Shown here piece after piece: positions 45,591-62,915 of a stretch of DNA of 64,000 nucleotides. The stretch covers positions 496,001 through 560,000 of the forward strand of contig NZ_CP046400.1 in assembly GCF_009762795.1 (NCBI RefSeq), in the 5' to 3' direction. Each line of letters opens with the position of its first letter. Within the stretch, counting starts at the first letter, position 1. A program made the position numbers and the translations under genes. The stretch is from Pseudodesulfovibrio cashew. GTDB lineage: Bacteria; Desulfobacterota; Desulfovibrionia; Desulfovibrionales; Desulfovibrionaceae. A model generated the notes under the pieces. That model was not told where the DNA came from. It made no database searches and worked only from the letters and a program-made list of their open reading frames with translations.

Positions 45591-45622
45591 GCTAAATTAT
45601 ATGCCCTTGAGAAGGGGGCGAC
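45591..45622 (-). repeat. Heavily decayed terminal CRISPR repeat
   Basis: The last 11 bases (AGGGGGCGAC with the preceding A) match the repeat, 16 of the last 21 positions agree, and the segment ends exactly 34 bp before the next repeat, a normal spacer length. The 5' half has lost most identity. It marks the oldest, trailer end of the array and lies in register as a 32-nt unit. Confidence 0.6.
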
Positions 45623-45656
45623 CTAGGTCCGACCTCTCTTGGCAGATGTGTCTGCC

Positions 45657-48600
45657 ATTTCAATTCACGCCCCGTGCAGGGGGCGACTCGACAAACGGAT
45701 TACGCGGGTTGAGGACAATATGTTTCAATCCACGCCCCCGTGCAGGGGGCGACGGGTGGTGTTAGTGGCTGATCAGATTGTCAAACAGTTTCAATCCACG
45801 CCCCCGTGCAGGGGGCGACACGGGTACACCTACGAGGTCCGCGCCCGTTCCGTGTTTCAATCCACGCCCCCGTGCAGGGGGCGACATTTTAAGGGGTACG
45901 TAGATCACTTTTACAACTTGTTTCAATCCACGCCCCCGTGCAGGGGGCGACGCGGAGATATACGGACGTTCCGCGCCTTTTTACCGGTTTCAATCCACGC
46001 CCCCGTGCAGGGGGCGACTCGGTCACTACCGGCACCGCCGGGGGACGAGAAAGTTTCAATCCACGCCCCCGTGCAGGGGGCGACAAGACGCGGAGCGGAC
46101 ATCGCGCCAACACGTTCAGGTTTCAATCCACGCCCCCGTGCAGGGGGCGACACCTTTTCAAGAGCGACGTTTCGGAGGTCGAGCTTGTTTCAATCCACGC
46201 CCCCGTGCAGGGGGCGACGGGCGGGGTAAGCCAAAGGCGCGACGACGAGCTTGTTTCAATCCACGCCCCCGTGCAGGGGGCGACCGGGACGCGGGCAACC
46301 GGGGTCGCCTTTTTGCCCAGTTTCAATCCACGCCCCCGTGCAGGGGGCGACACGCCGAAGCAGGCCGGGCCAGCGCACCGGATATCGTTTCAATCCACGC
46401 CCCCGTGCAGGGGGCGACTGGTCAGGGTGCGGATGATGTGCAGACGTTGAGCGTTTCAATCCACGCCCCCGTGCAGGGGGCGACACCCCTGGCGCTGGCC
46501 GGTGACGATGTACTTCGAGTTTCAATCCACGCCCCCGTGCAGGGGGCGACCGGCGGTGGTTACTGGAGGTCTTGCCTATGCGGCTGTTTCAATCCACGCC
46601 CCCGTGCAGGGGGCGACAGGGCAATTCGTGGCATAACTACGTGTTACACGGCGTTTCAATCCACGCCCCCGTGCAGGGGGCGACAGGGCAATTCGTGGCA
46701 TAACTACGTGTTACACGGCGTTTCAATCCACGCCCCCGTGCAGGGGGCGACGGGACACGGCAGGGGTAGCATAGGAAGGTCGAATGTTTCAATCCACGCC
46801 CCCGTGCAGGGGGCGACGGGTGGTATGGTAAATGTGGACAGATCGCCTATGGTTTCAATCCACGCCCCCGTGCAGGGGGCGACACGGGCCGAACGCGGGA
46901 TGTTGTCGATTTCGACGGTTTCAATCCACGCCCCCGTGCAGGGGGCGACTGGTCGCCGTAATCGGCAGATCGGGCAGCGCAGAGGTTTCAATCCACGCCC
47001 CCGTGCAGGGGGCGACCCTTGGACATGCGGAGCCCGTTCAGATCGATGATGTTTCAATCCACGCCCCCGTGCAGGGGGCGACCACACATGGCGGGTACTT
47101 CCGTCGCATCCATGATGTTTCAATCCACGCCCCCGTGCAGGGGGCGACGCAAGTGCCGAGGCGGGCACATGAGGTTGAACCGTTTCAATCCACGCCCCCG
47201 TGCAGGGGGCGACCCAGCTGCTTCTTGGTCTGCTGATCGGACGCAAGGTTTCAATCCACGCCCCCGTGCAGGGGGCGACTCCGTGACTTCAAAGTCGGTC
47301 CCGTCGTTGAGCGGTTTCAATCCACGCCCCCGTGCAGGGGGCGACATTGACGTTCGGGAACTAGGCACAGGCAAGTCCAGGTTTCAATCCACGCCCCCGT
47401 GCAGGGGGCGACTTAAGTAGTGTCACAACATGCAGATTCTGCGCAGGTTTCAATCCACGCCCCCGTGCAGGGGGCGACTGCGCACCGTGCCGTCGGTGTC
47501 GGCGATGAGGGTGGTTTCAATCCACGCCCCCGTGCAGGGGGCGACTATTCAACCCAAAATCAACCCGACGTTGTAAATAGTTTCAATCCACGCCCCCGTG
47601 CAGGGGGCGACTGCGCACCGTGCCGTCGGTGTCGGCGATGAGGGTGGTTTCAATCCACGCCCCCGTGCAGGGGGCGACTATTCAACCCAAAATCAACCCG
47701 ACGTTGTAAATAGTTTCAATCCACGCCCCCGTGCAGGGGGCGACGCTCAAGGCTGTTGACGGGATAAAAAAGGGGAAGAGTTTCAATCCACGCCCCCGTG
47801 CAGGGGGCGACTCCAGTAACTACAGCCGCCGCGTCAAATATGCCAGTTTCAATCCACGCCCCCGTGCAGGGGGCGACCGAAGCGACGACCATGTCCTGGT
47901 CGATCCACAGGGTTTCAATCCACGCCCCCGTGCAGGGGGCGACGCCCAGGAAGGCCGCGCCAGCCGCCAAACCGACGAGTTTCAATCCACGCCCCCGTGC
48001 AGGGGGCGACGCCGGATACCCCGGCGCTTCCCGCCGCCGCAGGAGTTTCAATCCACGCCCCCGTGCAGGGGGCGACACAACCCCTTGCCGCCCTTGCTAG
48101 CCTCTTTCGGTGTTTCAATCCACGCCCCCGTGCAGGGGGCGACAACGAAGCCAACAGCGTTAAATATAGAGTTCATCGTTTCAATCCACGCCCCCGTGCA
48201 GGGGGCGACAATCCTGGGCCGGGGCGAGGGGCGGCACGCTCTCAGTTTCAATCCACGCCCCCGTGCAGGGGGCGACAGCGGCGACAGAGGCCGAAACCGG
48301 CGCGTGGTATGTTTCAATCCACGCCCCCGTGCAGGGGGCGACCTGATAACTTTCCTCATCCGGCGAAAGGGTAGATGGTTTCAATCCACGCCCCCGTGCA
48401 GGGGGCGACCGCCGGGGGCAACGCCTTCGCCGGACGTATAAAGGTTTCAATCCACGCCCCCGTGCAGGGGGCGACCGCCGGGGGCAACGCCTTCGCCGGA
48501 CGTATAAAGGTTTCAATCCACGCCCCCGTGCAGGGGGCGACCGATGGTTAGGGCGTTCCCGCCTGGGTAGATATGGTTTCAATCCACGCCCCCGTGCAGG

Positions 48601-49801
48601 GGGCGACGGGAGAGATAGCGCGAGTGAGCGCAAAGGGCAGGTGTTTCAATCCACGCCCCCGTGCAGGGGGCGACTGGAGTCCGGGGCGGATAGAGACTCT
48701 GTCATAGTCGTTTCAATCCACGCCCCCGTGCAGGGGGCGACCCAAAAAATACGGTAACTTGGACAAGGAAAAATGGTTTCAATCCACGCCCCCGTGCAGG
48801 GGGCGACTTCGCGTGGCCTATTACGTCGCCTGCCTCGTCGATGTTTCAATCCACGCCCCCGTGCAGGGGGCGACAAGTTCGACTTCGGAAACGTCAGACT
48901 TAAAAAGGTGTTTCAATCCACGCCCCCGTGCAGGGGGCGACCCAGCATATCCGGCTATGTCCGCGCCTTCTTGTGGTTTCAATCCACGCCCCCGTGCAGG
49001 GGGCGACTTGCAGCGGCCATAACGCCCAGAATGATGTACTTGTTTCAATCCACGCCCCCGTGCAGGGGGCGACACGATGATTTTATCTCAACTATAATGG
49101 CAATGACCGTTTCAATCCACGCCCCCGTGCAGGGGGCGACGCTTTACTCCCTTCCGGCGTCAGACATCCTGGATGTTTCAATCCACGCCCCCGTGCAGGG
49201 GGCGACTTCACCATTTCAGGCGCGCGCAGCACCTTCAACCTGTTTCAATCCACGCCCCCGTGCAGGGGGCGACAAAAGTTGAAACAGCCGGACCTTTTGC
49301 GTCATACGTTTCAATCCACGCCCCCGTGCAGGGGGCGACCCAGTAACTTTTGCTGCCTTTTTAAGTTCATAAGTTTCAATCCACGCCCCCGTGCAGGGGG
49401 CGACTTGATCACATTTTAACCGCCCTAAAGGGCAAAGGGTTTCAATCCACGCCCCCGTGCAGGGGGCGACTGTGACGGCCACGGATGCCGGTGCCCTGAT
49501 AGATGTTTCAATCCACGCCCCCGTGCAGGGGGCGACATTGTTTTCGGCTCAAGTTCTGTGGTGGCAGAGGGTTTCAATCCACGCCCCCGTGCAGGGGGCG
49601 ACATGGTTTGGCAGCGACTGTTTGTCAACTTCTCAAGTTTCAATCCACGCCCCCGTGCAGGGGGCGACAAGGTGGTTCCCCGCGGCGGAGGGGATGGAGG
49701 AAAGTTTCAATCCACGCCCCCGTGCAGGGGGCGACGGTGACCGTCAAGGACTCGTTGGAGACCAGCGGGGTTTCAATCCACGCCCCCGTGCAGGGGGCGA
49801 C
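45657..49801 (-). CRISPR. Type I-C CRISPR array, 63 repeats and 62 spacers
   Basis: The repeat is 32 bp: on plus it starts GTTTCAATCCACGCCC and ends CAGGGGGCGAC; in crRNA sense (minus) it ends GTGGATTGAAAC, the type I-C handle. I counted 63 units from 45657 to 49770; all look identical except the first (45657-45687), which is 31 bp with A for G at position 1, T for C, and one C missing. Spacers are 33-35 bp. The inner hairpin is CGCCCCC/GGGGGCG. The leader and cas2 lie to the right, so the newest spacers are near 49800. Duplicated spacers: 46618-46652 = 46685-46719; the two-spacer block 47479-47579 = 47612-47712; 48410-48443 = 48476-48509. Confidence 0.98.
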
Positions 49802-49979: not shown

Positions 49980-50273
49980 CTACAGGATGAGCACATCCGT
50001 TTCCGGGTCGTAAGCCTCGCCCGCGCCGTGCTGCTCCACTCTCCTTTGCCAGTTCTTACCGAGGAAATAAAACCGCAGGCTATCCACCTCCTCGTCGTAG
50101 GCATCAAGTAGGCGGTGACGCAATTGTGCCCACTGGGCCGGGTCGACCACGCACTCGAACACGGAGTACTGAACCCGCTGACCGTAATTCTCGCAAATCT
50201 TGGCGATCTTCTGCAGGCGGCGCTTGCCGTCCGGATTCTCGAAGCTCACGTCATAACTTACCAAAACCAACAT
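49980..50273 (-). CDS. cas2: CRISPR endonuclease Cas2 (type I-C)
   Basis: 97 residues from MLVLVSYDVSFENPDGKRRL (GGAAGTGAG upstream). VSYDV carries the Asp of the ferredoxin-fold Cas2; RVQYSVFECVVDPAQW is a second family hallmark. Cas2 dimers bridge two Cas1 dimers in the spacer-integration complex. It is the last cas gene, directly before the leader and 2 bp after the cas1 stop. Confidence 0.96.
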   Translation of the reverse strand: MLVLVSYDVSFENPDGKRRLQKIAKICENYGQRVQYSVFECVVDPAQWAQLRHRLLDAYDEEVDSLRFYFLGKNWQRRVEQHGAGEAYDPETDVLIL

Positions 50274-50275
50274 GC

Positions 50276-51307
50276 TCACTTCCAATAATACGGCGGGTAG
50301 CCGTCCAGATCGCCCCGTATGCTTCGGGCGATGAGTTGCGCCTGAACATGAAAGGCCAGGCCAAGCGGGATGCGCTCCCTGAGGAACGGATGCATCGCCT
50401 CATCCTGCTTGCGCTTTTGCCAGGCGGTCAGGACCGTCTTCCGCGTGTCGTCGTCCATGAACACCGCCCCGCTCTCCTTGGTCACGAAGCCGCGTGCACG
50501 GACCTCGCCACGATTGATGAGCGACAGGACCAGCCTGTCCGCCATGAACGAACGGAACTCCTCCATGACGTCCAGGGCAAGACCGGGACGCCCGGGCCGG
50601 TCGCGGTGCAGGAAACCGACTTGCGGATCGAGCCCCACGGCCTCCAGGGCGGACCGAACATCATGAGCCAGCAGCGTATAAACGAAAGAAAGCAGGCAGT
50701 TCACCGCATCAAGCGGCGGACGACGGTTGCGTCCGTCAAACGAGAACGCCTCCTCATCCTGCAGAACCATCTGGCCGAACACGGCAAAGTATGCCCCTGC
50801 CGCCTGGCCTTCCATGCCCCGCGCCTCATCCAGCGAAACAGGGGTTTGCAAGCGGCGGGCGCACTCATCAAGGGTGCAAACGGCCCGCTCCAGCATCCCG
50901 GCATCCACCCGGTCCCCGTGGTCACGGAGACAGCGCCGCAGAACCGCCCGCGAGTTGACGACCTTCCCCGCTATGACGGACCGGGCGATATCCGCCGACG
51001 CCACGGGGTCATCCGCCTGACGGTATTGCTCCCGGCGAAGCAGCACATTGCCGCTCTGCGGGCCGCGCACTCCGGCCAGATACCGCCCGCGCTCGGTCAT
51101 GAATGAAAGCGCCAGCCCCTTCTCGCCGCAATGGCCCAGCAGGAACGGGCTGCACAGCACGTTGCCGAAGCAGACGATGCCGTCCAGTACATGGACCGGG
51201 AAACGCTTCTTCTGGCCGTTCTCGGCCCGGATCACCACACATTCGCCATCCTTTGACAGATAGGTCCCCTGGGAAGTGACATAGAGCGTATTCAAGAGTT
51301 TCTTCAT
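50276..51307 (-). CDS. cas1: CRISPR integrase Cas1 (type I-C)
   Basis: 343 residues from MKKLLNTLYVTSQGTYLSKDGE, the usual I-C Cas1 start; the frame's longer version reads into cas4. A beta-rich N-domain (VIRAENGQKKRFPVHVLDGI) is followed by an all-helical catalytic domain (EGQAAGAYF with the first metal Glu; CLLSFVYTLLAHDV; GFLHRDRPGRPGLALDVMEEFR with the later His and Asp/Glu residues). It integrates spacers at the leader-proximal repeat with Cas2. The ATGA overlaps the cas4 stop. Confidence 0.97.
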   Translation of the reverse strand: MKKLLNTLYVTSQGTYLSKDGECVVIRAENGQKKRFPVHVLDGIVCFGNVLCSPFLLGHCGEKGLALSFMTERGRYLAGVRGPQSGNVLLRREQYRQADDPVASADIARSVIAGKVVNSRAVLRRCLRDHGDRVDAGMLERAVCTLDECARRLQTPVSLDEARGMEGQAAGAYFAVFGQMVLQDEEAFSFDGRNRRPPLDAVNCLLSFVYTLLAHDVRSALEAVGLDPQVGFLHRDRPGRPGLALDVMEEFRSFMADRLVLSLINRGEVRARGFVTKESGAVFMDDDTRKTVLTAWQKRKQDEAMHPFLRERIPLGLAFHVQAQLIARSIRGDLDGYPPYYWK

Positions 51308-51915
51308 GGTTCCAGCCCCTTGAGCAGATAGCGTTCCACATCCTGCCCTGTCTTGGGCATGCACGCGCCTTTCAGGGAGCACCCCCGGCATCGCTTGCCG
51401 TGCGTTGCAGGAGGCGTCTGTGCGGTCTCGACCATTGTGTGCATGTCCCGGCAGCTTTGCTCCACGAGCGAGCGCAAGGGGGTGTCAAAGACCACCCGCT
51501 CACGGCGGCGGGGCTTGCCGTAGAAGATCGCCCCATCCCGAATGACTGCGCCAAGCATCTCCTCCAGGCACATGGCCTGGGCGCAGAGCTGTGCCCGGTC
51601 CCAGTCCTCGACCTTGGGAGAACCGCGCTTGTACTCAACGGGATAAGGAATCTCCCGTCCGTCCGGCCCGGGGCGCATCTCCACCACGTCGGCCACGCCG
51701 TAAAGTCCCAGCCGGTCGCTGCGAATGGGCACGGCGCGGTCCTCGGCAACGCCTCCGCGCCGACCGGCGGAACCGGAATCGGCACGGAGGTGCAGCAGCC
51801 GCCCCTCGGCGGTGAAACGGTTCTCGGCCCAGACCTTTTCCACATGGATGAGCGCGCACTGCCGGGGGCAGTACAGATAGTGCTGCAATGCGGAAAGGGG
51901 CAGGGTCCGGTCCAT
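51304..51915 (-). CDS. cas4: CRISPR-associated exonuclease Cas4
   Basis: 203 residues. The N-terminal Cys in LYCPRQCALIHVEKVW, PVEYKRGSP (the nuclease Asp/Glu-x-Lys block) and the C-terminal CRGCSLKGACMP supply the four cysteines of a 4Fe-4S RecB-type nuclease. In I-C systems Cas4 works with Cas1-Cas2 to choose prespacers with the correct PAM end and to set their orientation. It sits in the operon between cas7 and cas1, with overlapping or abutting ends. Confidence 0.96.
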   Translation of the reverse strand: MDRTLPLSALQHYLYCPRQCALIHVEKVWAENRFTAEGRLLHLRADSGSAGRRGGVAEDRAVPIRSDRLGLYGVADVVEMRPGPDGREIPYPVEYKRGSPKVEDWDRAQLCAQAMCLEEMLGAVIRDGAIFYGKPRRRERVVFDTPLRSLVEQSCRDMHTMVETAQTPPATHGKRCRGCSLKGACMPKTGQDVERYLLKGLEP

Positions 51916-51917
51916 GG

Positions 51918-52793
51918 CTAGAACTTCACGTCCACGTCCACACCGCCTGGAACGGCTCCCTCGTCAACGGCGACCACGTAGTCGCCAAAGGCGCGGGCCG
52001 GGCCATCGCCCCCGTTGCGGGTGACGGTTACGGCGTCGAAGAGCTTGTGCGCCGGAGCGTTGCCCAGCTTGTCCTGGTGTTTGAACACGATCAGGCCGCG
52101 CGCGCTCATCTTGCCACGCGCCGCAGAGTGGTCGTGATCGAACATGTTCGCAAGCGCCTGCCACAGCAGCTCCAGGTCGTCATCGGAGAATCCGGTGCCC
52201 TTGTCACCGTCGGCCAGGTGTGCGGAGACGAACCCTTCGGCACGATACAGGGCATAGGGCACGATGTGCTTGCGGCCCATGGTGCGATTGTCGCCGTCCT
52301 GGGCCTTGGCTTCCTTTTCGGTTTCCACGGCCATGCGGGTGATGGAGACCTCGGCGGGGATGATCGGGTCAATGCTCTTGGCAAAGGTGAGCTGCACCGG
52401 GCCGCGCACCTGTCCGCAGTTGTTCTCCTTGGTGGACATGACCGCGCCGAAGGTGCGCACGTCGAAAAAGTTCTCGCACATCCACTGCCGGGCTGCAGCG
52501 ACCTGCTCTTCCTTTTTCTTGAGCTTCTTGACCTCCTCGGTCTTGTAGGCGGGCTCGCGTGTCAGGGACAGGACGCCCTTTTCGGCCACATAGATATTGC
52601 AGCCCTCCTCGCCTCCCTTGGCGATCTCCACGAAATTGCGCACCTTACGCTTCAGGCAGACATCGGTGACCAGGCCGTGGCCGGTTTCCGGGTCGATGCG
52701 CGGGGTGTTGCCCGCATCCGGGTCGCCGTTGGGATTACCGTTTTCCACGTCGAACAGGTACACGAATTCATAGCGATTGGTGATGGCGGTCAT
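51918..52793 (-). CDS. cas7: Cascade backbone subunit Cas7 (Csd2)
   Basis: 291 residues. [21 protein letters not shown] is the Csd2/Csh2 RRM opening. [20 protein letters not shown] and PVSITRMA-like segments ([12 protein letters not shown]) follow, with [19 protein letters not shown] in the middle. Multiple copies coat the crRNA guide in the I-C Cascade. It lies 3 bp after the cas8c stop; cas4 follows by 2 bp. Confidence 0.96.
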
Positions 52794-52796
52794 GGT

Positions 52797-54509
52797 CTAG
52801 TCCTCCGATTTGTCGTCTTTTTTGGTGAAGAAGTCCTGGCGTTGCTGATAATAACCGAGAATGAACATCCCCTGCTTTTCCGTTGTCAGGGATGAGGGGA
52901 ATCCTGTGGCCGCATCAATGCCGGTCACGATGTCCTGGATCTTTTTTTCGAGAGTGACGGCCCACCCCGGCTTCTCTTTTCGGATCTTGGCCAGGCCGTG
53001 CTGGGCGTTTTTCAAAATGATGGGGAAGGAACGCCCCGGCGTGGCGGTGGCGGAACTGAAGAACCGGTCCCGTACCGTGGCATTGGCACCAGGCACGGCC
53101 TCTTCCTGAATCCGCTCCACCACGGCGAAGAGCCGTCCGAGCCGGTAGCCGATATCCCTGTTTTCCGTATCAAGCGTCATGTGAATCTCCTGATTGCTGT
53201 TTCGAACGAGAAAAGCCTTGATGAGTGCCGTCCGCAGGTAAGTGACGTCCTTGTCCGCACGGATGCGCCCAAGGGCTGAGGCGAGCAACGTCTGCGGATA
53301 GGGCTGCCCCTGTAAGATGGCCCTGATGAGTTGCCCGCCAAGAAGCGGTGAGATGTTCTTGGAATCCCGCTGCGGAGCCAGTTCCCTGAGCAGTTGCCAC
53401 GGGCTTGGATATTCCGGCTCGCTGTCGAACCGGCGCTTCATGGCCAAGGCACGGTAGTGGCGTCCCAGGTTTTCGGCCATGCCTCCAACGGTGCCCACAT
53501 GCCAGAAGCGGACCGAGATGCGCGCCGCATTGGGCGACAATCCAAGGACATAGAACGGCGTGTCGGCGCTCCCCAGTGCATCCGGGAACCGCCCTTTGGC
53601 GATGTCTGCCAGATAGCCTTCCAGCCGCTTCACCAACCCGTCGTCCTCGGCCTTCTTGCCGCCCATGCCGGAGCCGAAGAGCGCCTCTGCCTCGCCCGGC
53701 GCATCGGACCAGAACACCACGGTGGTATCGCCCACCTGCACCTTGCGCAGGCTGCCCGGTGCCAGCAGATGGTTCAGGGCCGTGGTATAGGCGAACGCGG
53801 CCCGTTCCGAGACAGGGGCGTTGTGATTCTGCTTCTTGCCGTATGACACGGCTGCATCGAAATTGAAGGAAACCAGCGACGCCCCGGAGGTCTGCGCCCC
53901 CGGCACCCCCTTGATTTTGGCATGAATCGGCGGAATGGGAGCGTTCTCTCCAGTGACGAGGCACATGCCGGTTTCGCTCTCACCAACGGCTTGATGACGG
54001 ATCCAGGCTTCCCGAAAGGCGGGACGGTCGTGCAGAAAACCGGGCTCGCCATCCAGTTGGAACACGATGTTCTGGCCGATGATCTCCTCCCAGTCCGGCA
54101 AAGTCTCTGCCAGTTCCGGCTCCCAACCATTCAGAAACGCCAAGAATGCTCGCGCCCCGGCATCGTCCACGCCGTCCAGGACGGCAGCGGCCTCGGCCTT
54201 GAACGCCTGGTGGGTTTGGGCCGTACGCTCAGGCTTGCCCTTGTCGTCGGCTCCAAGCACGTAGCCGGTGTTATCCCAGGCGAAATTGGATTTGATCCCC
54301 ACGGAGCGGCCCACCGGCCCCGGCACTTCGATGCGTCTTGGCTTGCCTTTCTCGTCCCGCAGGTCCAGCGGTCGGCCCACCATCTTGCCCTCCCGGTCCA
54401 ACTGCAGGCAGAAATGCACCCCCTGCTTGCCGAAGCCGAATTCCGGAACATTGGCCTTGGGGTCGTCGCTCAGCCGCTTGTAGTATTGATTCAAGGCATG
54501 AAGGATCAT
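52797..54509 (-). CDS. cas8c: Cascade large subunit Cas8c (Csd1)
   Basis: 570 residues from MILHALNQYYKRLSDDP, the characteristic Csd1 start. The body contains GIKSNFAWDNTGYVLG and VFWSDAPGEAE, typical of Csd1. Cas8c reads the PAM and recruits Cas3. In I-C loci an internal start inside cas8c also yields the small Cas11 subunit; here an internal Met with an upstream purine stretch in the last third (the MTLDTENRDIGYRLG region) is a candidate. The ATG overlaps the cas5 stop (ATGA). Confidence 0.95.
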   Translation of the reverse strand: MILHALNQYYKRLSDDPKANVPEFGFGKQGVHFCLQLDREGKMVGRPLDLRDEKGKPRRIEVPGPVGRSVGIKSNFAWDNTGYVLGADDKGKPERTAQTHQAFKAEAAAVLDGVDDAGARAFLAFLNGWEPELAETLPDWEEIIGQNIVFQLDGEPGFLHDRPAFREAWIRHQAVGESETGMCLVTGENAPIPPIHAKIKGVPGAQTSGASLVSFNFDAAVSYGKKQNHNAPVSERAAFAYTTALNHLLAPGSLRKVQVGDTTVVFWSDAPGEAEALFGSGMGGKKAEDDGLVKRLEGYLADIAKGRFPDALGSADTPFYVLGLSPNAARISVRFWHVGTVGGMAENLGRHYRALAMKRRFDSEPEYPSPWQLLRELAPQRDSKNISPLLGGQLIRAILQGQPYPQTLLASALGRIRADKDVTYLRTALIKAFLVRNSNQEIHMTLDTENRDIGYRLGRLFAVVERIQEEAVPGANATVRDRFFSSATATPGRSFPIILKNAQHGLAKIRKEKPGWAVTLEKKIQDIVTGIDAATGFPSSLTTEKQGMFILGYYQQRQDFFTKKDDKSED

Positions 54510-55162
54510 GCGGCCACCACCCCTTTCCGGCAATCAACGATGCCTTTTTCCAGCGTGGGCCGGAAAAAGAACGGCGTCATGTCGGCAGCATAATTGATGT
54601 CATAGAGCATCCAGCCCAGGTCGCGCGGCGCATCCCCCGCCAGCTCCGAAACCGGGATGTCTCCTTTGACCGGCTCGAAGTGGGCCGCAAACTCCCGGCA
54701 GCCCAGGTAGGGACGGTGGAAGCACTGCCCCTTCTTGGCGCGGCGGTTGAACATGTCCAGATGCTTTCCATCATTTCGGTCCTCGGCGGACGTGTAATCG
54801 AAATGCGCCTCAATGACGTATTCCACGTCCCGCAGCACCATGGCCGCCCGTTGCTGGCGGCTCTCCTCCACGTACAACCGGAGCGGCGCATTGCCGCCCT
54901 TCATGGCCGCGTTCACGCCGCCAGAGCCTCCCACCGGCACCTTGCCCGCCACCTCATTGCGACGCACGTTGTCGAACCGGATGGGCTTCATCACATGGAT
55001 GCGATCGATGCCCCACCTGATGGCGGGCTTCCAGTAGATCGCCTCCAATATCCCGCGCGCTGCCGACGGCGTCATCACGTCGTAGCTGACGCGCTCCACC
55101 TTCATCTCCGGGCGGGTGAAGCACGCGTAATCACCCCAGACCCTGAGTTGTATTCCTGCCAC
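54506..55162 (-). CDS. cas5: crRNA-processing endonuclease Cas5c (Cas5d)
   Basis: 218 residues starting at GTG 55162 with GGAGGT 7 nt upstream. IQLRVWGDYACFTRPEMKVER is the Cas5 RAMP start, followed by SYDVMTPSAARGILEAIYWKP, with the Tyr/Lys/His catalytic residues typical of the I-C subtype. Type I-C lacks Cas6, so Cas5c itself cuts the repeat and stays on the 5' handle. It is the first gene of the cas5-8-7-4-1-2 transcript and is separated from cas3 by a 310-bp regulatory region. Confidence 0.96.
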   Translation of the reverse strand: MAGIQLRVWGDYACFTRPEMKVERVSYDVMTPSAARGILEAIYWKPAIRWGIDRIHVMKPIRFDNVRRNEVAGKVPVGGSGGVNAAMKGGNAPLRLYVEESRQQRAAMVLRDVEYVIEAHFDYTSAEDRNDGKHLDMFNRRAKKGQCFHRPYLGCREFAAHFEPVKGDIPVSELAGDAPRDLGWMLYDINYAADMTPFFFRPTLEKGIVDCRKGVVAA

Positions 55163-55286
55163 GAAACTTACCTCCGTGTTGTATCATTTCTACCCATAAC
55201 ACTAGACTGATATAAAATAATAAGTACCTTATCAAGCCCCACAACCTCCCACTCTTAAGAAGTTTCATCATGAAAGTGTGAATCAT
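55131..55286 (-). CDS. Small hydrophobic ORF overlapping the cas5 start (candidate CreT-like toxin or leader peptide)
   Basis: 51 codons from ATG 55286 (or 46 from ATG 55271), stop at 55131 inside cas5 in another frame. The middle part LWGLIRYLLFYISLVLWV is a probable membrane helix, followed by a polar tail. Codon use is unlike the neighbouring genes (tandem TTA-TTA, ATA, AGG, CTA). Its start lies directly after the second TTC-flanked match to the CreR-like guide. No good SD is seen. It may be a toxin repressed by the guide RNA, a leader peptide coupling to cas5, or chance. Not recognised in any family. Confidence 0.35.
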   Translation of the reverse strand: MIHTFMMKLLKSGRLWGLIRYLLFYISLVLWVEMIQHGGKFRGRNTTQGLG

Positions 55287-55287
55287 T

Positions 55288-55306
55288 TATTTATACCTTA
55301 ATTGAA
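55288..55306 (-). promoter_or_regulatory. Predicted CreR target 2 and -10-like box before cas5
   Basis: On the minus strand: PAM TTC (55306-55304), then AATTAAGGTATAAATA, matching the psi-spacer at 15 of its first 16 positions with the single mismatch at position 6. TATAAA at 55295-55290 looks like a -10 element for the cas5 transcript, so Cascade bound here should block initiation. Other possible cas5 promoters lie further in (TTGTGG/TATTAT near 55205-55240). Confidence 0.6.
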
Positions 55307-55322
55307 TTAGACTTAGCCTCAT

Positions 55323-55381
55323 GGAGCTATTTTCGGGCGACATATTTATACCGTAATTGTTTCAACCCACGCCCGAGCTCC
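55323..55381 (-). ncRNA. CreR/CreA-like crRNA mimic (psiR1-psiS-psiR2)
   Basis: Minus strand, crRNA orientation. PsiR1 ends CGGGCGTGGGTTGAAAC at 55359; the genuine repeat ends GGGGCGTGGATTGAAAC (two mismatches in 17). PsiS is AATTACGGTATAAATAT (55358-55342, 17 nt). PsiR2 starts GTCGCCC (55341), the first 7 nt of the repeat. GGAGCT-CGGGCG of psiR1 can pair with CGCCCG...AGCTCC after psiS, enclosing handle and guide in one stem-loop. The guide matches two TTC-flanked sites in this same intergenic region. Architecture and position are those of CreR/CreA RNAs of type I systems, which guide Cascade to repress cas or toxin promoters without cleavage. Expression is not shown. Confidence 0.75.
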
Positions 55382-55387
55382 ACAATC

Positions 55388-55429
55388 TAGCTACATATAC
55401 AATCGCCTTTTGTCAATACCTTAATTGAA
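55388..55429 (-). promoter_or_regulatory. Promoter of the crRNA-like RNA with predicted target 1
   Basis: Minus strand: TTC (55429-55427) then AATTAAGGTAT, matching the first 11 guide positions except position 6. The match runs into a consensus -35 box TTGACA (55416-55411). With 17-bp spacing a weak -10 (TAGCTA) lies at 55393-55388, which would start transcription near 55381, the first base of psiR1. Cascade loaded with this guide would therefore shut off its own RNA. Confidence 0.55.
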
Positions 55430-55472
55430 GCGGACTGTGCATAGCTCCTCCTTTCACACAATGACACCATAC

Positions 55473-57647
55473 TCAACCAATAAAATCCTCCGGGCGCATC
55501 TCGCCGGGAAAGGTCAGCCCGAACATCTCGTCATGGAACTCCATGCCACAGAGCACGGCATAGGTGTCCGCCACCCATTCGATGCCTCCGGCTTGATCCA
55601 GGGCCGCGAACTGACCGTCGTAGACCTGCACCGTGTACTGTTGCAGTTGCCGCAGAATGCCGCCGGGATGCTCGGCATAGTGCAGGTCGCGCACCAGCTT
55701 CTCCGCCCGCTCGTCATAGGGGATGACAACCGGAACCATGGTGTTCTCAATGAGTCTGAACGCCTTGCCCGCCTTGCGGAAATACCACTCGCCCCGGTCG
55801 TTGTTCAGGTGTTCCAGGATGCGCTTGCTGTCGAGCCGGTCCTTCTCCAGCCAGTAGTGCAAGGTAAAATAATGCCGAATGGCTTCGGGCGAAAAGGGAT
55901 CGACATCCGGTGTGCGGAGCACGGAGCCGGTATGCCCTGCCGGGCCGCTGAATGCGCGGGCAACGCCTTCCACGGGCGTGAAAACCCCCACCGGAGCCGC
56001 CCCGTCCAGTTCCCCTTCCCGGTTGCACCGCCCTGCGGCCTGGGTGATGGAGTCCAGCCCGGCCATCTCGCGGACAACTTCAGGAAACGAGACATCCACC
56101 CCGGCCTCGATCAATTGCGTACTGATCACGCGGCACGGCTCGCCGCCCGCCAGCATTTCGCGGATTTCCTCCAGCCTCTTCGATCTATGGGCCGGACACA
56201 TCAACGCGCTCAGATGACGCGCTCCTGGCTCGTCCCGCACCAGCTCGAACAATTCAGCGGCGCGTTTGCGAGTATTGACGATGCACAGGACCTGCTCCCG
56301 CTCCCGAACCATCTCCGCCACCTCGGCCAACGCCAGTTCACCGAGGTCTACCAGCTCGGTCCGTTTAAACGCCTCATGCATCCGCTGCGGGTCCGGCGCG
56401 AGTTCCCGGTCATCACCCAGCCCGTCCAGGCCACAGGCGAAATCCTCCTTTCGCAGGGCTGGCTGCGTGGCCGTGCACAGGACCACGCTGGCACCATAGT
56501 TTTCGGTCAGTTCCTCCAGGGCGCGCAGGCACGGGACCATGAAATCCACCGGCAGCATCTGCGCCTCGTCCAGAATGATCACCGAGTCGGCCAGGTTGTG
56601 CAGCTTGCGACACCTCGACGGCTTGAACGAAAACAGGGACTCGAAGAACTGCACGCTGGTGGTCACCACCACAGGTGCGTCCCAGTTCTCGCACGCCAGG
56701 CGATGCCGCCGGGCCTCGGCTGACTCCCGGGCATGGTCCTCCCGGTCAAAAACCTTGGAAGCGTCAAAGGTGCTGTGGTGCTCGACCACTGAATTGGCCG
56801 GAAATATCTCCCGGAAAACCCGCGCGTTCTGCTCGATGACCGAGGTATACGGGATGACATAGATCACGCGGCGCTTTCCATGCAACCGGGCGTGATCCAG
56901 GGCAAAGGCCATGGAGGTCAGCGTCTTGCCGCCGCCCGTGGGCACCGTCAGGGAGAACAGCCCCGGAGCCAGCGAGGCCTTGGCCCTGCAAGCAGCGAGA
57001 ATTTCCGCACGAAGTTCATTGATACGCCCTGACGCGGCGAACGTTGCCAGCTTGGCATCCAGCGCGGCAGTCAGCACTTCAAGCGAAGGACCGGGAGTGC
57101 GCCAAGAATGCCGAACACCGTCCATAAATGCTTCGGTATCCAGAAAATCCGCATCCACAAGAGTGGAAAAGAGCATACGGGTAAAAAAAGAAGCTTGAAA
57201 TGGGGAGTGTATTGGGAACGGTAGCTCTGGGTCATCTCGTCCCAAAAGAGGATTGGTTCTGTCTTCAGGAAAACTGGCGGCACCCCTAACCGTTTTTTCG
57301 AGAGAGTGCCCGTTGTCTGTCCCGTTGTAATCAGGTAGCCCCACATGATGACCAGCCACACAGTAAGCACCAATTCGACCAAAAGCCGACGCGCGATCCT
57401 GTAAAAGCCGAGCGCCCATACCTTTGTGGTCGACATGTTGCTGCTTTTCGCCGGTTAGGCGTTTCTGAAAGTTTATGGAGTATTTGCCTACATCATGAAG
57501 CAGACCTAAGAGGTAGCCCCATTCAGCTGCGTCAAATGAACTAGCAAATGTGGCTGCCATTTGTGCCACCTTGTCAAGGTGCTCATCCAATTTTTGCCAG
57601 CTTTCAGGACCAGATCCATCTTTTGTGTGCGCGTAAATGTCGTCCAT
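55473..57647 (-). CDS. cas3: CRISPR nuclease-helicase Cas3 (type I-C)
   Basis: 724 residues from ATG 57647 (the upstream in-frame start is TTG). An N-terminal HD nuclease (YAHTKD near residue 6; LLHDVGKYS with His-Asp about 51-52; AGHHVG) is fused to a superfamily 2 helicase: Walker A TVPTGGGKTLTS (about 234-245), motif II DEAQ (about 360-363) in a DExH-like place, TATQPAL, and motif VI QAAGRCNREG. Cas3 is recruited by Cascade and degrades target DNA. It is followed by the CreR-like region rather than directly by cas5. Confidence 0.97.
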   Translation of the reverse strand: MDDIYAHTKDGSGPESWQKLDEHLDKVAQMAATFASSFDAAEWGYLLGLLHDVGKYSINFQKRLTGEKQQHVDHKGMGARLLQDRASAFGRIGAYCVAGHHVGLPDYNGTDNGHSLEKTVRGAASFPEDRTNPLLGRDDPELPFPIHSPFQASFFTRMLFSTLVDADFLDTEAFMDGVRHSWRTPGPSLEVLTAALDAKLATFAASGRINELRAEILAACRAKASLAPGLFSLTVPTGGGKTLTSMAFALDHARLHGKRRVIYVIPYTSVIEQNARVFREIFPANSVVEHHSTFDASKVFDREDHARESAEARRHRLACENWDAPVVVTTSVQFFESLFSFKPSRCRKLHNLADSVIILDEAQMLPVDFMVPCLRALEELTENYGASVVLCTATQPALRKEDFACGLDGLGDDRELAPDPQRMHEAFKRTELVDLGELALAEVAEMVREREQVLCIVNTRKRAAELFELVRDEPGARHLSALMCPAHRSKRLEEIREMLAGGEPCRVISTQLIEAGVDVSFPEVVREMAGLDSITQAAGRCNREGELDGAAPVGVFTPVEGVARAFSGPAGHTGSVLRTPDVDPFSPEAIRHYFTLHYWLEKDRLDSKRILEHLNNDRGEWYFRKAGKAFRLIENTMVPVVIPYDERAEKLVRDLHYAEHPGGILRQLQQYTVQVYDGQFAALDQAGGIEWVADTYAVLCGMEFHDEMFGLTFPGEMRPEDFIG

Positions 57648-58615
57648 TAAACACCAAGGGTCTTCCCGCCAGTCCCTCCCCAACTAATGGTACACTCATA
57701 ACAAATTGCTTATGCATGGATCGGGTAATCTTGTCCATAGTATTTATTGGTTTGCTGGAATGAATTAAGTGCAGCGTATATTCAAAAGGCGGTGACGATT
57801 ATGCCGAGCTATCTACGAGTACAAATACCATCTAGCTAAAGCGCCGAGCAGTCATCATCCTACGGCGCATAAGGCTTTTGGGTTGTGGGGATGAAAGAGG
57901 AGGGTGTACGCCAACAAATCAAGCTGATATAGAATTGACATGAGTAAAAAATGAATTGGTGCATAAAAAACAGCGGGCGGAGGAGCTGATAACTCTTTGA
58001 CTGTGAGCAAAAGCAAAACTGATATGCAACAATTTCAGTCAACACGTTTTACTTGCGGCACTCTTCTTGGTCGAAAATTCCCTCTTGGCCCATCGACCAA
58101 GCTCACCGAGGACGATTTGTTTGATTGTTCCGAGAGCATAGATTGGCGCTCTTCTGATTGGGTATACGGGCGCTAAGTGCATTGTGAGAACTAAATCGTT
58201 CCCGCTGATAGATGCAAAGCACCATCGAAGGAATCAGAGAACGAATCGTTTTCAATAGCGTGATGGCTTAAGCTTTATAAAGGAGCCCCCACCAATGAGA
58301 CCGGAAGATATACCTAAAGGCTGGATTTCCTCCGAGAAGGACTTGAAGAAAGATTGCAAACGAGCGTTCCCGAAGGAGCACTTCAAGCATTTCCGTTACG
58401 CGACTCTCTGGCGTTAGAAGCAGCCGAAAAAACCTGACGACGATTCGGACACCACGGAATGAGGGAGATCTTTACTTGCATGCCTCGAATGATAGAGGCT
58501 TACTCTCCCCATGGGGCAGCCATGGAGCATGTCAGTTTGGAGACGAAAAGGACCTCAGGCCTTCACAGTTGGCGAATACACTTAACTGCAAGCGCTTAGC
58601 GCACGGCACCTGGGG
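57648..58615. other. Mostly non-coding region between cas3 and the iteron cluster
   Basis: Low coding potential and lower GC than the cas genes. It must contain the cas3 promoter near 57660-57800. Two weak minus-strand frames (57604-57738, 44 codons; 57860-58045) have no supporting signals. A small plus-strand ORF with a good SD lies at 58295. I see no CRISPR-like motif or CreR target here, so cas3 may be regulated separately from cas5-cas2. Confidence 0.5.
58295..58417 (+). CDS. Small ORF with an in-frame amber stop (40 codons, readable to 58462)
   Basis: ATG 58295 is preceded by AAAGGAG. The reading MRPEDIPKGWISSEKDLKKD continues to TAG at 58415, after which the same frame stays open for 14 more charged codons (KQPKKPDDDSDTTE) to a TGA at 58462. 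The composition is protein-like (polar, Lys/Asp-rich). It may be a short satellite-element protein, or a slightly longer gene interrupted by a nonsense mutation. Unrecognised. Confidence 0.35.
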   Translation: MRPEDIPKGWISSEKDLKKDCKRAFPKEHFKHFRYATLWR

Positions 58616-59097: not shown

Positions 59098-61863
59098 TTA
59101 CTCTTTGAAGATCTTCGACGTGATGACGTAAACCTTTTTCAGGCTCTTGACGCCCATTCCGGGAAGTCGCTTGGCCATCTGGAAGCTCCCGGAGGTCTGT
59201 GTTTTCAGAATCCCCTGTTCAGCAAGCATCCTGCAAACCATCTTGTGGTCGAATCCCTGGCAGACCTCCCGAAACGCCTCAGGGAACATCCAGAATTCAG
59301 CGTTGCCCTCGTCATCTTCATTTCGGAATCCTGCCCTGTTGTAGCTCTCGACGATCACCTGCGGTTCAGAGCTTTCACTATTTTTGGATCCAATGAGCTC
59401 AAAGCGGCTGCTAGCGTACTTTTCAAAGAATGCGCGGACCTGCCGAAGCCCTTCCAGCTTTTCAGCAGCACCTTTTCCCCCGCGATGGTTAAGCCATGCG
59501 TGGAAGCAATCCATTGCAGCTTTGGACGCCTCTGCAGACTCCCACGGAAGGATGCCGATCTCAGCAGCAAGCTCACCGCTTGCAGCCACATGCGCAAAAC
59601 GCCTGCAGGCCCGCTTGACCTGCCCGTCAGCTTCGATCGGACAATGAGTGTTATAAAAAGTGTGGCGCAGCTGAGAGTGCCGTTTACAATGGGCATCGAG
59701 GTTGTCCATCAGTTTTTCCAGAAACGCCCGAAGCGGAGTTCCGTAGTAGGAGGTTGCAGCCTGGGAAATCGCTCGTGCGAACTCTTCCCCATTTCCGAAG
59801 CCATGGATCTTCTCGAACGCACCGAGGTCACAACCTGCGTCTGCAGGAATATCCACGATTCTCACAGCATGCCCAGCCTTAGCCCTCAGTCTCTGATCCT
59901 CAAGGAGCTTGTCATTAAGAGAAGTTTCGCCGGTACTGAGAAAACAAGATCGCCAGGCGTTGATGGATGCAGTCGACCCAACTTTAGTCGCACGCAGCTT
60001 CCCCACACCGTTCGCAAGCAAATAAGCACCCTCCGCAACAACCTTACTGTCGGCTTGCCCCATCTCATCAAGGCAGAGGAGAGTATCACAGCATGATGCT
60101 GCAATTGCTTCGATACCGTTGTCAGTGGCACGCCACTGACGGATGTAGCCGGCGTCACCGCCACCGCCACACACACTAGCAGCAGCCATTAGCACGGTAG
60201 TCTTGCCGATGGAGCTACTTCCAATAAAATGAAAGCCGCCAGACTCAGCTCCTGCGTGGTGCTGCATAACGGCAGCGAACGCTACAGAAACACCAAAGGC
60301 GAGACGAGAATTCCCCTGGCACCAGGTGCCCACTGAATCCTGCCACTCCTTAAGGGAACCGCTCAGCTTGTATGGATTGTCATTGCAAAGCCTCTGGAGA
60401 ATTACCTGTTCTTCACCATGGACTCCATATGTCTGATCAGGGAGGACGAACGTGTCACCATGCCACCCGGTACGGGGGACACAAAGGGCGCGGGCTTCCG
60501 GGTCAGTCTGCACAATGTACTCAAGGAGCCGAGCCTTGGAATAACGTCCTGGCGCTAAGCGCAAGCCAAGACTTGCCAGATGTTGCCGAAAAGGCTCCCC
60601 AGCCATAGCGGTCATTTCCATGGACATGGCCCACTTATGGTCATTGCCATCAGGATCAGTAACCTGAAGCAACTTCCCCCAGCTCTGGTTGTCTTTATCG
60701 CGAGTAAGAGCGAGTACTTCCAAAGGAGAGCAGACCATTTCCTCGACGAGCTCGCCGCTCGAAACAATCTTGGTACGGTAGACACCGTCTTCCTTCAACT
60801 TAAAGCCGGGGGAGGCCGACGGGGAAGTTTGGGGCTTGTCGTCAATCCCGTAACGTTCTAATGCCAGACACTTGAATCCTTCACGGTCCACCTGGTTGTT
60901 TTCGATCAATTCCAGGGTGCGCTTGCTATCCCAGTCAGTGGCGTCGGCTAAATCCCACCCTTTGGGGGCATTTGCAGGAGGCACAACAATCGAGACCGAA
61001 GCGGCCTGTTCGATGACTGCGAGTTCTGCAACTTTGAGCGCGGCTTCGAAGCCGGGCTTGTCTGCGTCCGGCCAGATCTTTACCGCACGGTCTTTGACGG
61101 GGCTCCAGTCGGCCAAGTGCACGGAGTTGGAGCCGCTAGGCCAAGTCATAGCGACCATGCTATCCCCAACCAAATCACGCGCGGCATCAGCCGCTTTTTC
61201 CCCTTCCATAATAAGGACAGGGACAGTAGCTTCGGCCTGGGCCAAGATATCCAACCCATACAGGGACCGAGGGGCAGGCACCCCCTTCCAATCCCAGTGC
61301 CTGTTCCCTTTTCCGTCATGCCCAAACGTATGAGGAAGGATAGCCTTTCCCCCATCCGGCAGATCAAACCTGCAGACGTACGACAACGGATTGCCTTCAC
61401 AATCGAGGTAGAGCCATACCCGTGACGGCAATCCGAACTTCGGGTGTCTGTGATCGCTGCCAGGTGCGTCTTCAGGGATGGGCAGGAAGGGCTCCCAGTC
61501 GGCTTTTTTCGAAGACATCTTCTTTCGATTACAGCGGGGAGTATTGAATTCGATATGGAGATATTCTGCCAGCGCTTTGGCTGCCTCAAGCTGCGTGACG
61601 CCATTAAGATAGGCATAGAGGGAGATGAGATCGCCACCATATTCACCAGTAGCGTTTTCAAACCATTGCCCAGTGTCCTTATTAATTTTGAACGAACCAG
61701 GTTTTTTATCATCACGGGTCGGATTACGAGGGACATACTCGTTTCCTTCGTAACGCCCGCCAGGGCACCACAGCTCCACGAGCTCGTTGAAACGGTTCAA
61801 CGCAGCATGATTAACGGCCTGAAAATCAACCTTGAAATACTTCTGTTGACGGGGGCTACTCAT
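59098..61863 (-). CDS. P4-type primase-helicase (Toprim and DUF927 domains)
   Basis: 921 residues from MSSPRQQKYFKVDFQ; ATG 61863 has GAAGGAG upstream and overlaps the AlpA-like stop by 8 bp. The N-terminus resembles DnaG-type primase zinc-domain folds (GQWFENATGEYGGDLISLYAYL), followed by a Toprim domain (VLIMEGEKAAD with Glu; IWPDADKPG with the Asp pair). The C-terminal DUF927 helicase carries Walker A GSSSIGKTT and Walker B LLCLDEMGQ. This arrangement drives self-replication in P4-like satellites and integrative elements. Downstream lies the iteron cluster. Confidence 0.9.
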   Translation of the reverse strand: MSSPRQQKYFKVDFQAVNHAALNRFNELVELWCPGGRYEGNEYVPRNPTRDDKKPGSFKINKDTGQWFENATGEYGGDLISLYAYLNGVTQLEAAKALAEYLHIEFNTPRCNRKKMSSKKADWEPFLPIPEDAPGSDHRHPKFGLPSRVWLYLDCEGNPLSYVCRFDLPDGGKAILPHTFGHDGKGNRHWDWKGVPAPRSLYGLDILAQAEATVPVLIMEGEKAADAARDLVGDSMVAMTWPSGSNSVHLADWSPVKDRAVKIWPDADKPGFEAALKVAELAVIEQAASVSIVVPPANAPKGWDLADATDWDSKRTLELIENNQVDREGFKCLALERYGIDDKPQTSPSASPGFKLKEDGVYRTKIVSSGELVEEMVCSPLEVLALTRDKDNQSWGKLLQVTDPDGNDHKWAMSMEMTAMAGEPFRQHLASLGLRLAPGRYSKARLLEYIVQTDPEARALCVPRTGWHGDTFVLPDQTYGVHGEEQVILQRLCNDNPYKLSGSLKEWQDSVGTWCQGNSRLAFGVSVAFAAVMQHHAGAESGGFHFIGSSSIGKTTVLMAAASVCGGGGDAGYIRQWRATDNGIEAIAASCCDTLLCLDEMGQADSKVVAEGAYLLANGVGKLRATKVGSTASINAWRSCFLSTGETSLNDKLLEDQRLRAKAGHAVRIVDIPADAGCDLGAFEKIHGFGNGEEFARAISQAATSYYGTPLRAFLEKLMDNLDAHCKRHSQLRHTFYNTHCPIEADGQVKRACRRFAHVAASGELAAEIGILPWESAEASKAAMDCFHAWLNHRGGKGAAEKLEGLRQVRAFFEKYASSRFELIGSKNSESSEPQVIVESYNRAGFRNEDDEGNAEFWMFPEAFREVCQGFDHKMVCRMLAEQGILKTQTSGSFQMAKRLPGMGVKSLKKVYVITSKIFKE

Positions 61864-62083
61864 TAGCATCTCCTTCAGAGTATTCGCCCATTGCAATGCG
61901 CTTGAGACCATCAATCAAGTCGTCAATATCGCTTTCGCGCCACACCGTGCATCGTGCACCAAGCTTCAATCCGGCAGGATAAATGCCGTGTTTGACTCCA
62001 GCCCACCACGTGGACTTGCTGACAGGGATCCGCTCCAGGACGTCGGAGATACGCAAAAGGGATTCTTTCTGTTTTTCACTCAT
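61856..62083 (-). CDS. AlpA/excisionase-like DNA-binding protein
   Basis: 75 residues. RISDVLERIPVSKSTWWAGVKHG is a MerR-type HTH as in AlpA, with YPAGLKLGARCTVWRESDIDDLI as the wing region. AlpA-like proteins control integrase/excision or the replication operon in P4-type elements. It is first in a two-gene unit with the primase-helicase, under the palindrome and TGGTGAA repeats at 62151-62219. Confidence 0.88.
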   Translation of the reverse strand: MSEKQKESLLRISDVLERIPVSKSTWWAGVKHGIYPAGLKLGARCTVWRESDIDDLIDGLKRIAMGEYSEGDANE

Positions 62084-62150
62084 GTCATGATTCCTTTGGT
62101 TGTGACGTTAGCGGAAATCGCCGTGTCCATCTGAAATCAGACTACCGAGA

Positions 62151-62219
62151 CACCACTAGTGGTGCGTCAAGATGCCTAGGTGGTGAAAAAGCTGGTGAAA
62201 AATACTGAGGGGTGGTGAA
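62151..62219. promoter_or_regulatory. Palindrome CACCACTAGTGGTG and three TGGTGAA repeats
   Basis: A perfect 14-bp palindrome (62151-62164) is followed by TGGTGAA at 62181, 62193 and 62213. It lies in the 136-bp gap upstream of the AlpA-like gene and just after the stop of the 221-aa ORF. It is a likely operator for the AlpA-like protein or for an element regulator. P4 iterons of the GGTGAAC type are similar, so a replication role is also possible. Confidence 0.5.
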
Positions 62220-62885
62220 CTACTCTTTTTGGGCTCGTTTTCGAGCAGATTTCCCTCTTGACCGAAAGCCCTCGACCGAAAGCACTTCGTCAGGGTGTGA
62301 AACTAAGCGCCCCATCTGGTAATTGGAAATAACAGGGTTGTTTTTTCGATCTTCCGGACACGGAAAAGAGTCGTCCAATTCCCTGGCAACTTCAGCGCGC
62401 AAATTTCTACCGGAACAATGCTTGTACTTCTCATGGAGCCATGGGGCCATTTCTTCAGGCGTGTTGAAGACTACTCCCTCAAAAGAAGCAGGCTCCACTA
62501 TGCTGTTGACCACACCAATAGTAGGTAAATCTGCCCCTTCAGCCATATCAGCAAATTTATCCATGCCAGGGATCGGGAGCCCATTGACGGTATAAACAGC
62601 GCCTCTGATCCGGAGCAACAGATATTCAAACTCCAAAATTTTCTCATCCCGGTTCTGCAAAGACTTCGCATCGTCTGTTGAAGCCCTCCTCCAGCGCTGA
62701 AGTTCTCTTATGACCTTTTGTTCCAAAGTCTGGCCGTCAGCGTCACGCCTATTCAAAACCAATTCAGGCTTGCCGCCCTTTTGGAGAATTTCCGTCAATT
62801 GCTCCTCAAACTCGGAAACTAACACATTGTAATAGCTAACCTTACCACAACCCGCCATACCTTTTTTCTCCCTGTTGTCTTCCAT
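62220..62885 (-). CDS. Element-encoded protein of unknown function
   Basis: 221 residues, charged and helical. Visible features are FEEQLTEILQKGGKPEL, ELQRWRRAS, a central more hydrophobic stretch (LLLRIRGAVYTVNGLPIPG), and a very basic C-terminus (FRSRGKSARKRAQKE) that suggests nucleic-acid binding. It sits between the integrase (30 bp upstream) and the regulator. This position in P4-like elements often holds accessory or anti-phage genes. No family recognised. Confidence 0.7.
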   Translation of the reverse strand: MEDNREKKGMAGCGKVSYYNVLVSEFEEQLTEILQKGGKPELVLNRRDADGQTLEQKVIRELQRWRRASTDDAKSLQNRDEKILEFEYLLLRIRGAVYTVNGLPIPGMDKFADMAEGADLPTIGVVNSIVEPASFEGVVFNTPEEMAPWLHEKYKHCSGRNLRAEVARELDDSFPCPEDRKNNPVISNYQMGRLVSHPDEVLSVEGFRSRGKSARKRAQKE

Positions 62886-62915
62886 TTGAATTTGACTCCC
62901 ATCTTTCCTGGTGTG

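Follow-up and report, generated by a model that had tools for sequence, protein, structure and literature searches.

The window analysed here, 64,000 nucleotides of Pseudodesulfovibrio cashew (positions 496,001 to 560,000 of contig NZ_CP046400.1), comes from a genome that is a single contig of 3.9 Mb. Profile matches place on its minus strand an operon in the order cas3-cas5c-cas8c-cas7-cas4-cas1-cas2 with a CRISPR array downstream, the complete set by which type I-C is recognized. On that strand cas3 (55473..57683) is matched by general cas3 models only, cas5c (54506..55162) is matched by TIGR01876 (8.1e-57), and cas8c, cas7, cas4, cas1, and cas2 occupy 49980..54533. The array (45591..49801, minus strand) contains 62 exact copies of the 32-nt repeat GTCGCCCCCTGCACGGGGGCGTGGATTGAAAC and a degenerate end; spacers are duplicated within it at 47447-47712 and 48413-48508. 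Near cas3, positions 59098-63950 encode a primase/helicase-like protein and a tyrosine integrase, so the CRISPR locus may adjoin a mobile element.

Between cas3 and cas5 lies a gap of 310 nt, with a G+C content of 39% versus 59% in cas3 and 62% in cas5. Read in the direction of the operon, it contains a strong SD with a nine-codon mini-ORF, a first target site, a hairpin, a second target site, and an ORF of 51 amino acids (aa) that enters cas5. The hairpin is a crRNA-like RNA element (55323..55381, minus strand) whose arms, GGAGCT-CGGGC (55381-55371) and GCCCG-AAAAT-AGCTCC (55338-55323), are complementary and on folding close across a handle and a guide. The 5'-handle mimic GTGGGTTGAAAC (55359..55370), which reads GTGGATTGAAAC in the array, is followed by the 17-nt guide AATTACGGTATAAATAT (55342..55358) and then by a mimic of the 5' end of the repeat, GTCGCCC (55335..55341), so that the whole hairpin reads GGAGCT CGGGC-GTGGGTTGAAAC-AATTACGGTATAAATAT-GTC-GCCCG AAAAT AGCTCC. 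Minus-strand positions 55374-55359, GGGCGTGGGTTGAAAC, differ by one mismatch from the 3'-terminal 16 nt of the array repeat. The genome contains 64 copies of GTGGRTTGAAAC: 62 in the array, one in the cas3-cas5 gap, and one elsewhere. Thus, an ectopic repeat-derived handle (55370-55359) is present inside the cas locus, as is expected of a CreR.

The order of the repeat-derived parts is unusual. The 3' half of the repeat stands before the guide and the 5' half after it, and since these halves are mutually complementary, the guide forms the loop of a hairpin. This guide-in-loop fold has an energy of -23.2 kcal/mol (z -2.35; 4 of 200 shuffles are equally good), and the pairing across the guide extends outside the repeat-derived letters, where GGAGCT pairs with AGCTCC. 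The original prediction had described a crRNA-like guide directed at sites in its own operon and flanked, like a spacer, by two separate repeat mimics; the guide and its sites are as described, and the two flanking mimics turn out to be the sides of one hairpin across the guide.

Both target sites consist of a TTC PAM and a 17-nt protospacer and are read on the minus strand. Site 1 (55410..55429), TTC-AATTAAGGTATTGACA, has its PAM at 55429-55427 and its protospacer starting at 55426; within the 17 nt the guide matches at positions 1-5, 7-11, 14, and 16, and the site covers the -35-like hexamer TTGACA. Site 2 (55287..55306), TTC-AATTAAGGTATAAATA, has its PAM at 55306-55304, starts its protospacer at 55303, matches the guide at 1-5 and 7-16, and ends immediately before the 51-aa ORF. 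Both sites mismatch the guide at position 6, and the gene for the guide itself is preceded by AAC, not TTC. Handle, guide, GTCGCCC, both sites, and this AAC agree to the base with the letters and coordinates originally predicted. The pattern TTCAATTANGGTAT occurs twice in the window, for an expectation of 0.00, and none of 100 shuffles contains two copies; with A or C at position 6, TTCAATTAMGGTAT is found in the whole genome only at the two sites. A 19-nt pattern with up to 3 mismatches has five occurrences, three of them at the guide gene and the two sites; its backward control has two. Of what characterizes a CreR guide, limited complementarity and PAM flanking are present at two sites; that a promoter of the operon is addressed is tentative, given the weak -10 behind TTGACA.

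A candidate promoter for the RNA (55381..55416, minus strand), obtained with a simple scoring scheme of our own, consists of TTGACA (55416-55411), a spacing of 17 nt, and a weak TAGCTA (55393-55388). The start, about 7 nt after the candidate -10 and near 55381, falls on the 5' end of the hairpin. This promoter is tentative because a consensus scan of the cas3-cas5 gap found no consensus promoter; the weight matrix used general rather than fitted base frequencies, and the poor -10 counts against a promoter at site 1. Directly after cas3 and overlapping site 1, the nine-codon mini-ORF (55413..55442, minus strand) was recognized by eye, preceded by the strong SD AAAGGAGG (55454-55447). The 51-aa ORF (55131..55286, minus strand) contains a hydrophobic stretch, overlaps the start of cas5, and is a possible toxin-like cargo. 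A consensus scan of the gap for terminator-like sites found none; thus, transcripts that start there should run into cas5, which makes autorepression of the RNA together with cas5-cas2 the first choice as output.

To follow the element in other bacteria, loci were fetched after Cas5c matches had been found in 48 of 148 genomes of relatives and in 101 of 348 genomes of the class. A broad set added the best 80 of at least 587 relatives confirmed in a scan of genome contigs, a non-random choice, for a total of 187 fetched I-C loci. The class set comprises 107 loci with cas5, the window included: 15 have no upstream cas3 match, 42 have a cas3-cas5 gap shorter than 75 nt, and 50 have a gap of at least 75 nt. 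These long gaps contain 27 handle sites (at most 2 mismatches) in 23 of the 50, against one on the reverse strand; the other 27 gaps are without a handle. A partner was defined as a TTC-flanked site with at least 9 of 10 matches over guide positions 1-5 and 7-11. Such a partner exists for 15 of the 27 class handle sites and is lacking for 12; shuffled guides find one in 0 of 1080 cases and swapped guides in 0.7% of 692. In the 80 broad loci, 14 of the 45 long gaps have a handle site. A wide pattern scan of the class was uninformative, with mainly ordinary arrays among the matches listed.

Across all 187 loci there are 71 solitary repeat-handle sites within 3.3 kb upstream of cas5, of which 32 (in 31 loci) have a TTC partner in the same stretch and 39 do not; in three loci (L073, L078, L100) only TTT-flanked sites passed. 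A reversed-handle control, run without the core and solitary filters that the actual search applied, gave a partner in 0 of 16 cases. Removal of four of the 32 pairs, whose guides lay within 4 differences over 17 nt, leaves 28 non-redundant pairs. The original prediction had staked itself on the conservation of the element with matching targets in relatives, and guide and site do covary in these 28 pairs. Partnered elements occur in distant bacteria, for example Desulfonema magnum (L121), Halomonas sp. Y3 (L157), and Azotobacter vinelandii CA (L168); in Pelosinus propionicus (L117) the element lies upstream of cas3, and in Tautonia sociabilis (L160) and Rhizobium terrae (L171) it lies on the other strand. 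Within the same genus, the element is present in the window, L004, and L010, only 3 of 13 Cas5c loci, which speaks against strong conservation. Nine of the remaining loci have gaps of 29-60 nt without it, and one is a weak Cas5 match without an upstream cas3 match. Because 10 of the 13 lack it in the cas3-cas5 gap, the element is dispensable. Two loci (L076, L080) have a tRNA-like sequence, recognized by eye, inserted between cas3 and cas5, together with two or three tandem copies of the handle.

The 28 pairs also reveal how far pairing extends, since positions 6 and 12-24 played no role in their selection. At positions 13 to 17, guide and site match in 22, 23, 22, 22, and 18 of the 28 (64-82%; permutation means 8.1-10.4). 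Matches are few at position 6 (5/28), position 12 (3/28), and position 18 (4/28), and positions 19 to 24 are near chance. The I-C code is thus 5-1-5-1-5: pairing at 1-5, 7-11, and 13-17, after which it stops. A type I effector flips every sixth base, and the code is the footprint that such flipping would leave; it points independently to these RNAs being read by Cascade. The 17-nt guide in the window has exactly the length of the code; apart from position 6, site 2 matches through position 16, and site 1 through 11 only. The target base, as written, is A at positions 6, 12, and 18 in 22, 17, and 19 of the 28 pairs (binomial P 2e-5, 0.016, and 0.002). The guide base is A there in only 2, 3, and 1 of 28 and is avoided relative to other positions. 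Since matches at positions 6 and 18 are near the permutation mean, mismatch there reflects base preferences rather than avoidance pair by pair. One guess is that target A is preferred at flipped positions because T and U flip easily.

A cross-guide stem, built from other letters, is also found in L004, L010, L017, L025, L027, and L052. The helices in these six loci comprise 9 to 15 Watson-Crick pairs and reach the handle; they are equalled in 0 of 300 shuffles in one test and at a frequency of at most 0.01 (200 shuffles) in another, and the corresponding values for the outer arm in the window are 0.007 and 0.02. Altogether, the stem is clear at 7 of 41 sites in 37 loci, the window included, and folding adds L131. 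Among the 20 remaining class sites, 7 resemble an ordinary repeat in that the 28 nt preceding the handle form their own hairpin of at least 6 Watson-Crick pairs. Because the arms differ between loci and nevertheless remain complementary, the cross-guide stem itself appears to be under selection. In L027 the stem is long, yet no TTC site exceeds 6/10. An association of the stem with cargo ORFs was considered and rejected. By a loose SD criterion each of the six other clear cases has a small ORF; L131, cross-paired on folding, has none, and the association is therefore not applied to the window.

How such a hairpin might enter Cascade can be considered from the I-C structure, in which Cas5c and Cas7 clamp the 5' handle of the crRNA; a 3' stem-loop is described as absent from the I-C crRNA (PMC7684278). 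A guide without a 3' hairpin of its own is therefore plausible. The RNA in the window can tentatively be read, at less than even odds, as a naturally minimal, circularly permuted crRNA in which the two half repeats, placed on either side of the guide, together restore the repeat stem, the guide has the length of three five-base blocks, and the code, obeyed by I-C regulators across phyla, is a built-in rule for binding without cutting. Cas5c would then cleave the permuted stem and could excise the RNA, with the 3' half staying paired to the cast-off 5' arm.

Where the partner sites lie bears on what they control. In many relatives the site occupies the other strand, and a TTGACA-like -35 box follows its PAM end at 5-12 nt (5 in L017, L025, L052, and L094; 11 in L048, L088, and L090), distances that are taken from best matches without a null. 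In other relatives the site covers promoter-like elements, and in some loci neither arrangement is clear. Toxin families or small orphan membrane-protein ORFs stand beside the elements of L055, L139, L155, L004, L010, L147, L157, and L168; the membrane-protein ORF of L004 appears by eye to end in a terminator hairpin. In two loci (L017, L025), ORFs of 55 and 54 aa that resemble each other and are rich in Cys (WHFCKNC...) separate the promoter site from the element; they have no confident Pfam family. In two others (L098, L099) a hairpin followed by a strong SD (AAAGGAGG) was noted by eye between target site and element, and could represent a CreT-like RNA toxin.

Transcription and processing of the gap RNA, its binding by Cascade, and repression with its relief can be inferred from these observations, and it is highly probable, judging from sequence, that the RNA serves as a guide with which Cascade represses through partial pairing. 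Transcription of the RNA would run toward cas5, starting at a promoter with its -35 box inside site 1. Cas5c would recognize the handle and stem as repeat-like, and Cascade would assemble on the 17-nt guide and pair with both TTC-flanked sites at 1-5, 7-11, and part of 13-17. The resulting R-loop would be short, and Cas3 would not be licensed. Bound Cascade would prevent transcription from starting at site 1 and from crossing site 2, lowering the RNA itself, the 51-aa ORF, and the gap-initiated share of cas5-cas8-cas7-cas4-cas1-cas2 transcription; this last effect is expected because the gap has no terminator-like site. The net result would be negative feedback on free Cascade, which would relax when other crRNAs or inhibitors occupy the complex. 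Results in type I-B speak against so short a guide: 16- and 20-bp spacers on crtB left 67% and 65% of the mRNA in one strain, and a 20-bp spacer left 44% in another (PMC10989794).

Autorepression, including joint repression of a cargo, is probably the main output. The principal competing view holds that Cascade and the RNA mainly guard a toxin, as in CreTA or CrePA, silencing it so that loss or inhibition of Cascade harms the cell; the candidate toxins are an RNA around the mini-ORF and the hydrophobic 51-aa ORF that follows site 2. The position of this ORF, immediately behind site 2, and the same-genus loci L010 (-393) and L004 (-530), in which target and start codon of a small membrane-protein ORF overlap, make such a guard a live rival to the cas5 output. 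It agrees, too, with the known toxin families in the region before cas5 of some relatives (PIN_3 followed by a weakly matched RHH protein in L055, HicA in L139, the holin-like Hol_Tox in L155), and in view of such cargo repression of cas5 is possibly a side effect. When the DNA behind a fixed start codon is shuffled, only 1% of 20000 sequences are as open and hydrophobic as the 51-aa ORF (P about 0.01). Against this, the ORF has no convincing homologue in the 148 related genomes (its best other match, E 0.0015 and 29% identity, lies inside a 518-codon frame) and no match in Pfam; its last codons cross the cas5 leader, which is conserved in the genus, and then enter cas5. Moreover, the gaps of L033, L094, and L131 contain no ORF that has an SD-like motif and reaches 30 codons. 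A toxin guard as the main role is thus rated rather unlikely; the output of the 51-aa ORF and that of cas5-cas2 may both be real at once.

Autorepression must also be weighed against explanations that give the element no role for its host. Patchy presence within the genus and the diverged repeat halves would suit a decayed mini-CRISPR or target remnant without present function. Decay, however, would hardly leave two intact PAM-flanked sites where none is expected, an identical pairing code in 28 non-redundant pairs, and a cross-guide stem longer than its repeat-derived part, which makes this explanation improbable. Still less probable is an RNA anti-CRISPR, a Racr-like repeat mimic that titrates Cas5c or Cascade. 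There is a precedent in RacrIC1, which mimics an I-C repeat and inhibits type I-C (PMC10651486), but the element lies in a host operon and its guide matches two local PAM sites. In a viral collection, the exact handle-plus-seed pattern GTTGAAACAATTANGGTAT is absent, and 46 short-spaced I-C handle sites in 45 stretches have no TTC site of at least 9/10 within 3.3 kb; one such site occurs at a distance of 7 kb. A Racr or phage origin was rejected on these grounds, the absent pattern and the lack of near partners.

If the preferred reading, Cascade-guided autorepression, is true, type I-C, a common subtype, regulates itself or guards toxins through Cascade-guided RNAs that often lie between cas3 and cas5, and anti-CRISPRs against I-C are predicted to switch on the regulated genes. 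The natural pairs would be a read-out of the pairing that Cascade needs for binding without cutting, otherwise an engineering question, and the code could serve directly for designing guides when native I-C systems are used for repression. How Cas5c processes a permuted repeat is a testable question posed by the guide-in-loop hairpin.

It is very likely, on the sequence evidence assembled here, that the window element works like CreR or CreA, as a Cascade-guided repressor of that kind. It also resembles, in being a repeat-derived unit in a cas locus whose spacer partly matches local sites, the elements surveyed by Shmakov et al. in 2023, who reportedly described standalone repeats and mini-arrays in cas loci, mostly of type I. 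The mini-array spacers are said to match in part cas promoters or cargo such as toxin-antitoxins, and the survey may include I-C. The literature searched, which did not extend to Shmakov 2023 and Liu 2023 themselves, yielded no CreR or CreA of type I-C. Racr RNAs are repeat mimics recognized by Cas proteins, tested also in I-C; they are described as solitary repeats encoded by viruses or plasmids, without guide and target sites (PMC10651486). Solitary I-C-like repeats on viral contigs (L195, L200, L227, L230) could be RNAs of this type. In contrast, the window element sits inside a cas operon with a guide and two sites, which places it outside the Racr definition.

CreR (cas-regulating RNA) is a crRNA-like RNA in the cas locus that pairs in part with a promoter of the operon to which it belongs (PMC12737573, PMC13131331, PMC12948488), and CreRs have been reported for I-B, I-E, and V-A (PMC13131331). 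The window element shares this plan, a crRNA-like RNA inside the cas locus with a guide partly complementary to sites in its own operon. It differs from CreR in belonging to an I-C system with Cas5c, in having half repeats that close over a 17-nt guide, and in the 51-aa ORF in between; repression is predicted. A CreR has no coupled toxin, and the 51-aa ORF, possibly toxin-like, belongs to no known family. In CrePA, which includes the KilA-N toxin CreP, repression is guided by Cascade and Acr proteins would lift it (PMC12737573). Cascade-guided repression is likewise predicted in the window; unlike CrePA, its gap shows no KilA-N gene, and the cargo, if any, is the 51-aa orphan. In I-B, CreA recognizes a TTC-flanked site through a seed at positions 1-5 and 7-11, in which a change at any of the ten breaks function, and CreA with Cascade autoregulates its own promoter (PMC8501985). 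CreTA is known from I-B of Haloarcula and Halobacterium and from I-F of Acinetobacter (PMC8501985, PMC9458426, PMC10097628), the I-F form, which has an SD mini-ORF, being flanked by cas3 and the cas gene that follows it (PMC10097628). The seed code at 1-5 and 7-11 and the TTC PAM are thus shared with I-B CreA, and the position between cas3 and the next cas gene with I-F CreTA. In contrast to CreA, pairing in I-C reaches 13-17, and a toxin in the window is only putative. Those creA genes carry either a single repeat with a T-rich terminator or a pair of degenerate repeats, with no cross-guide stem mentioned in the available portions of these reports. The principle, then, is known from related systems; what is added here is an unusual folded form and a pairing rule common to distant bacteria.
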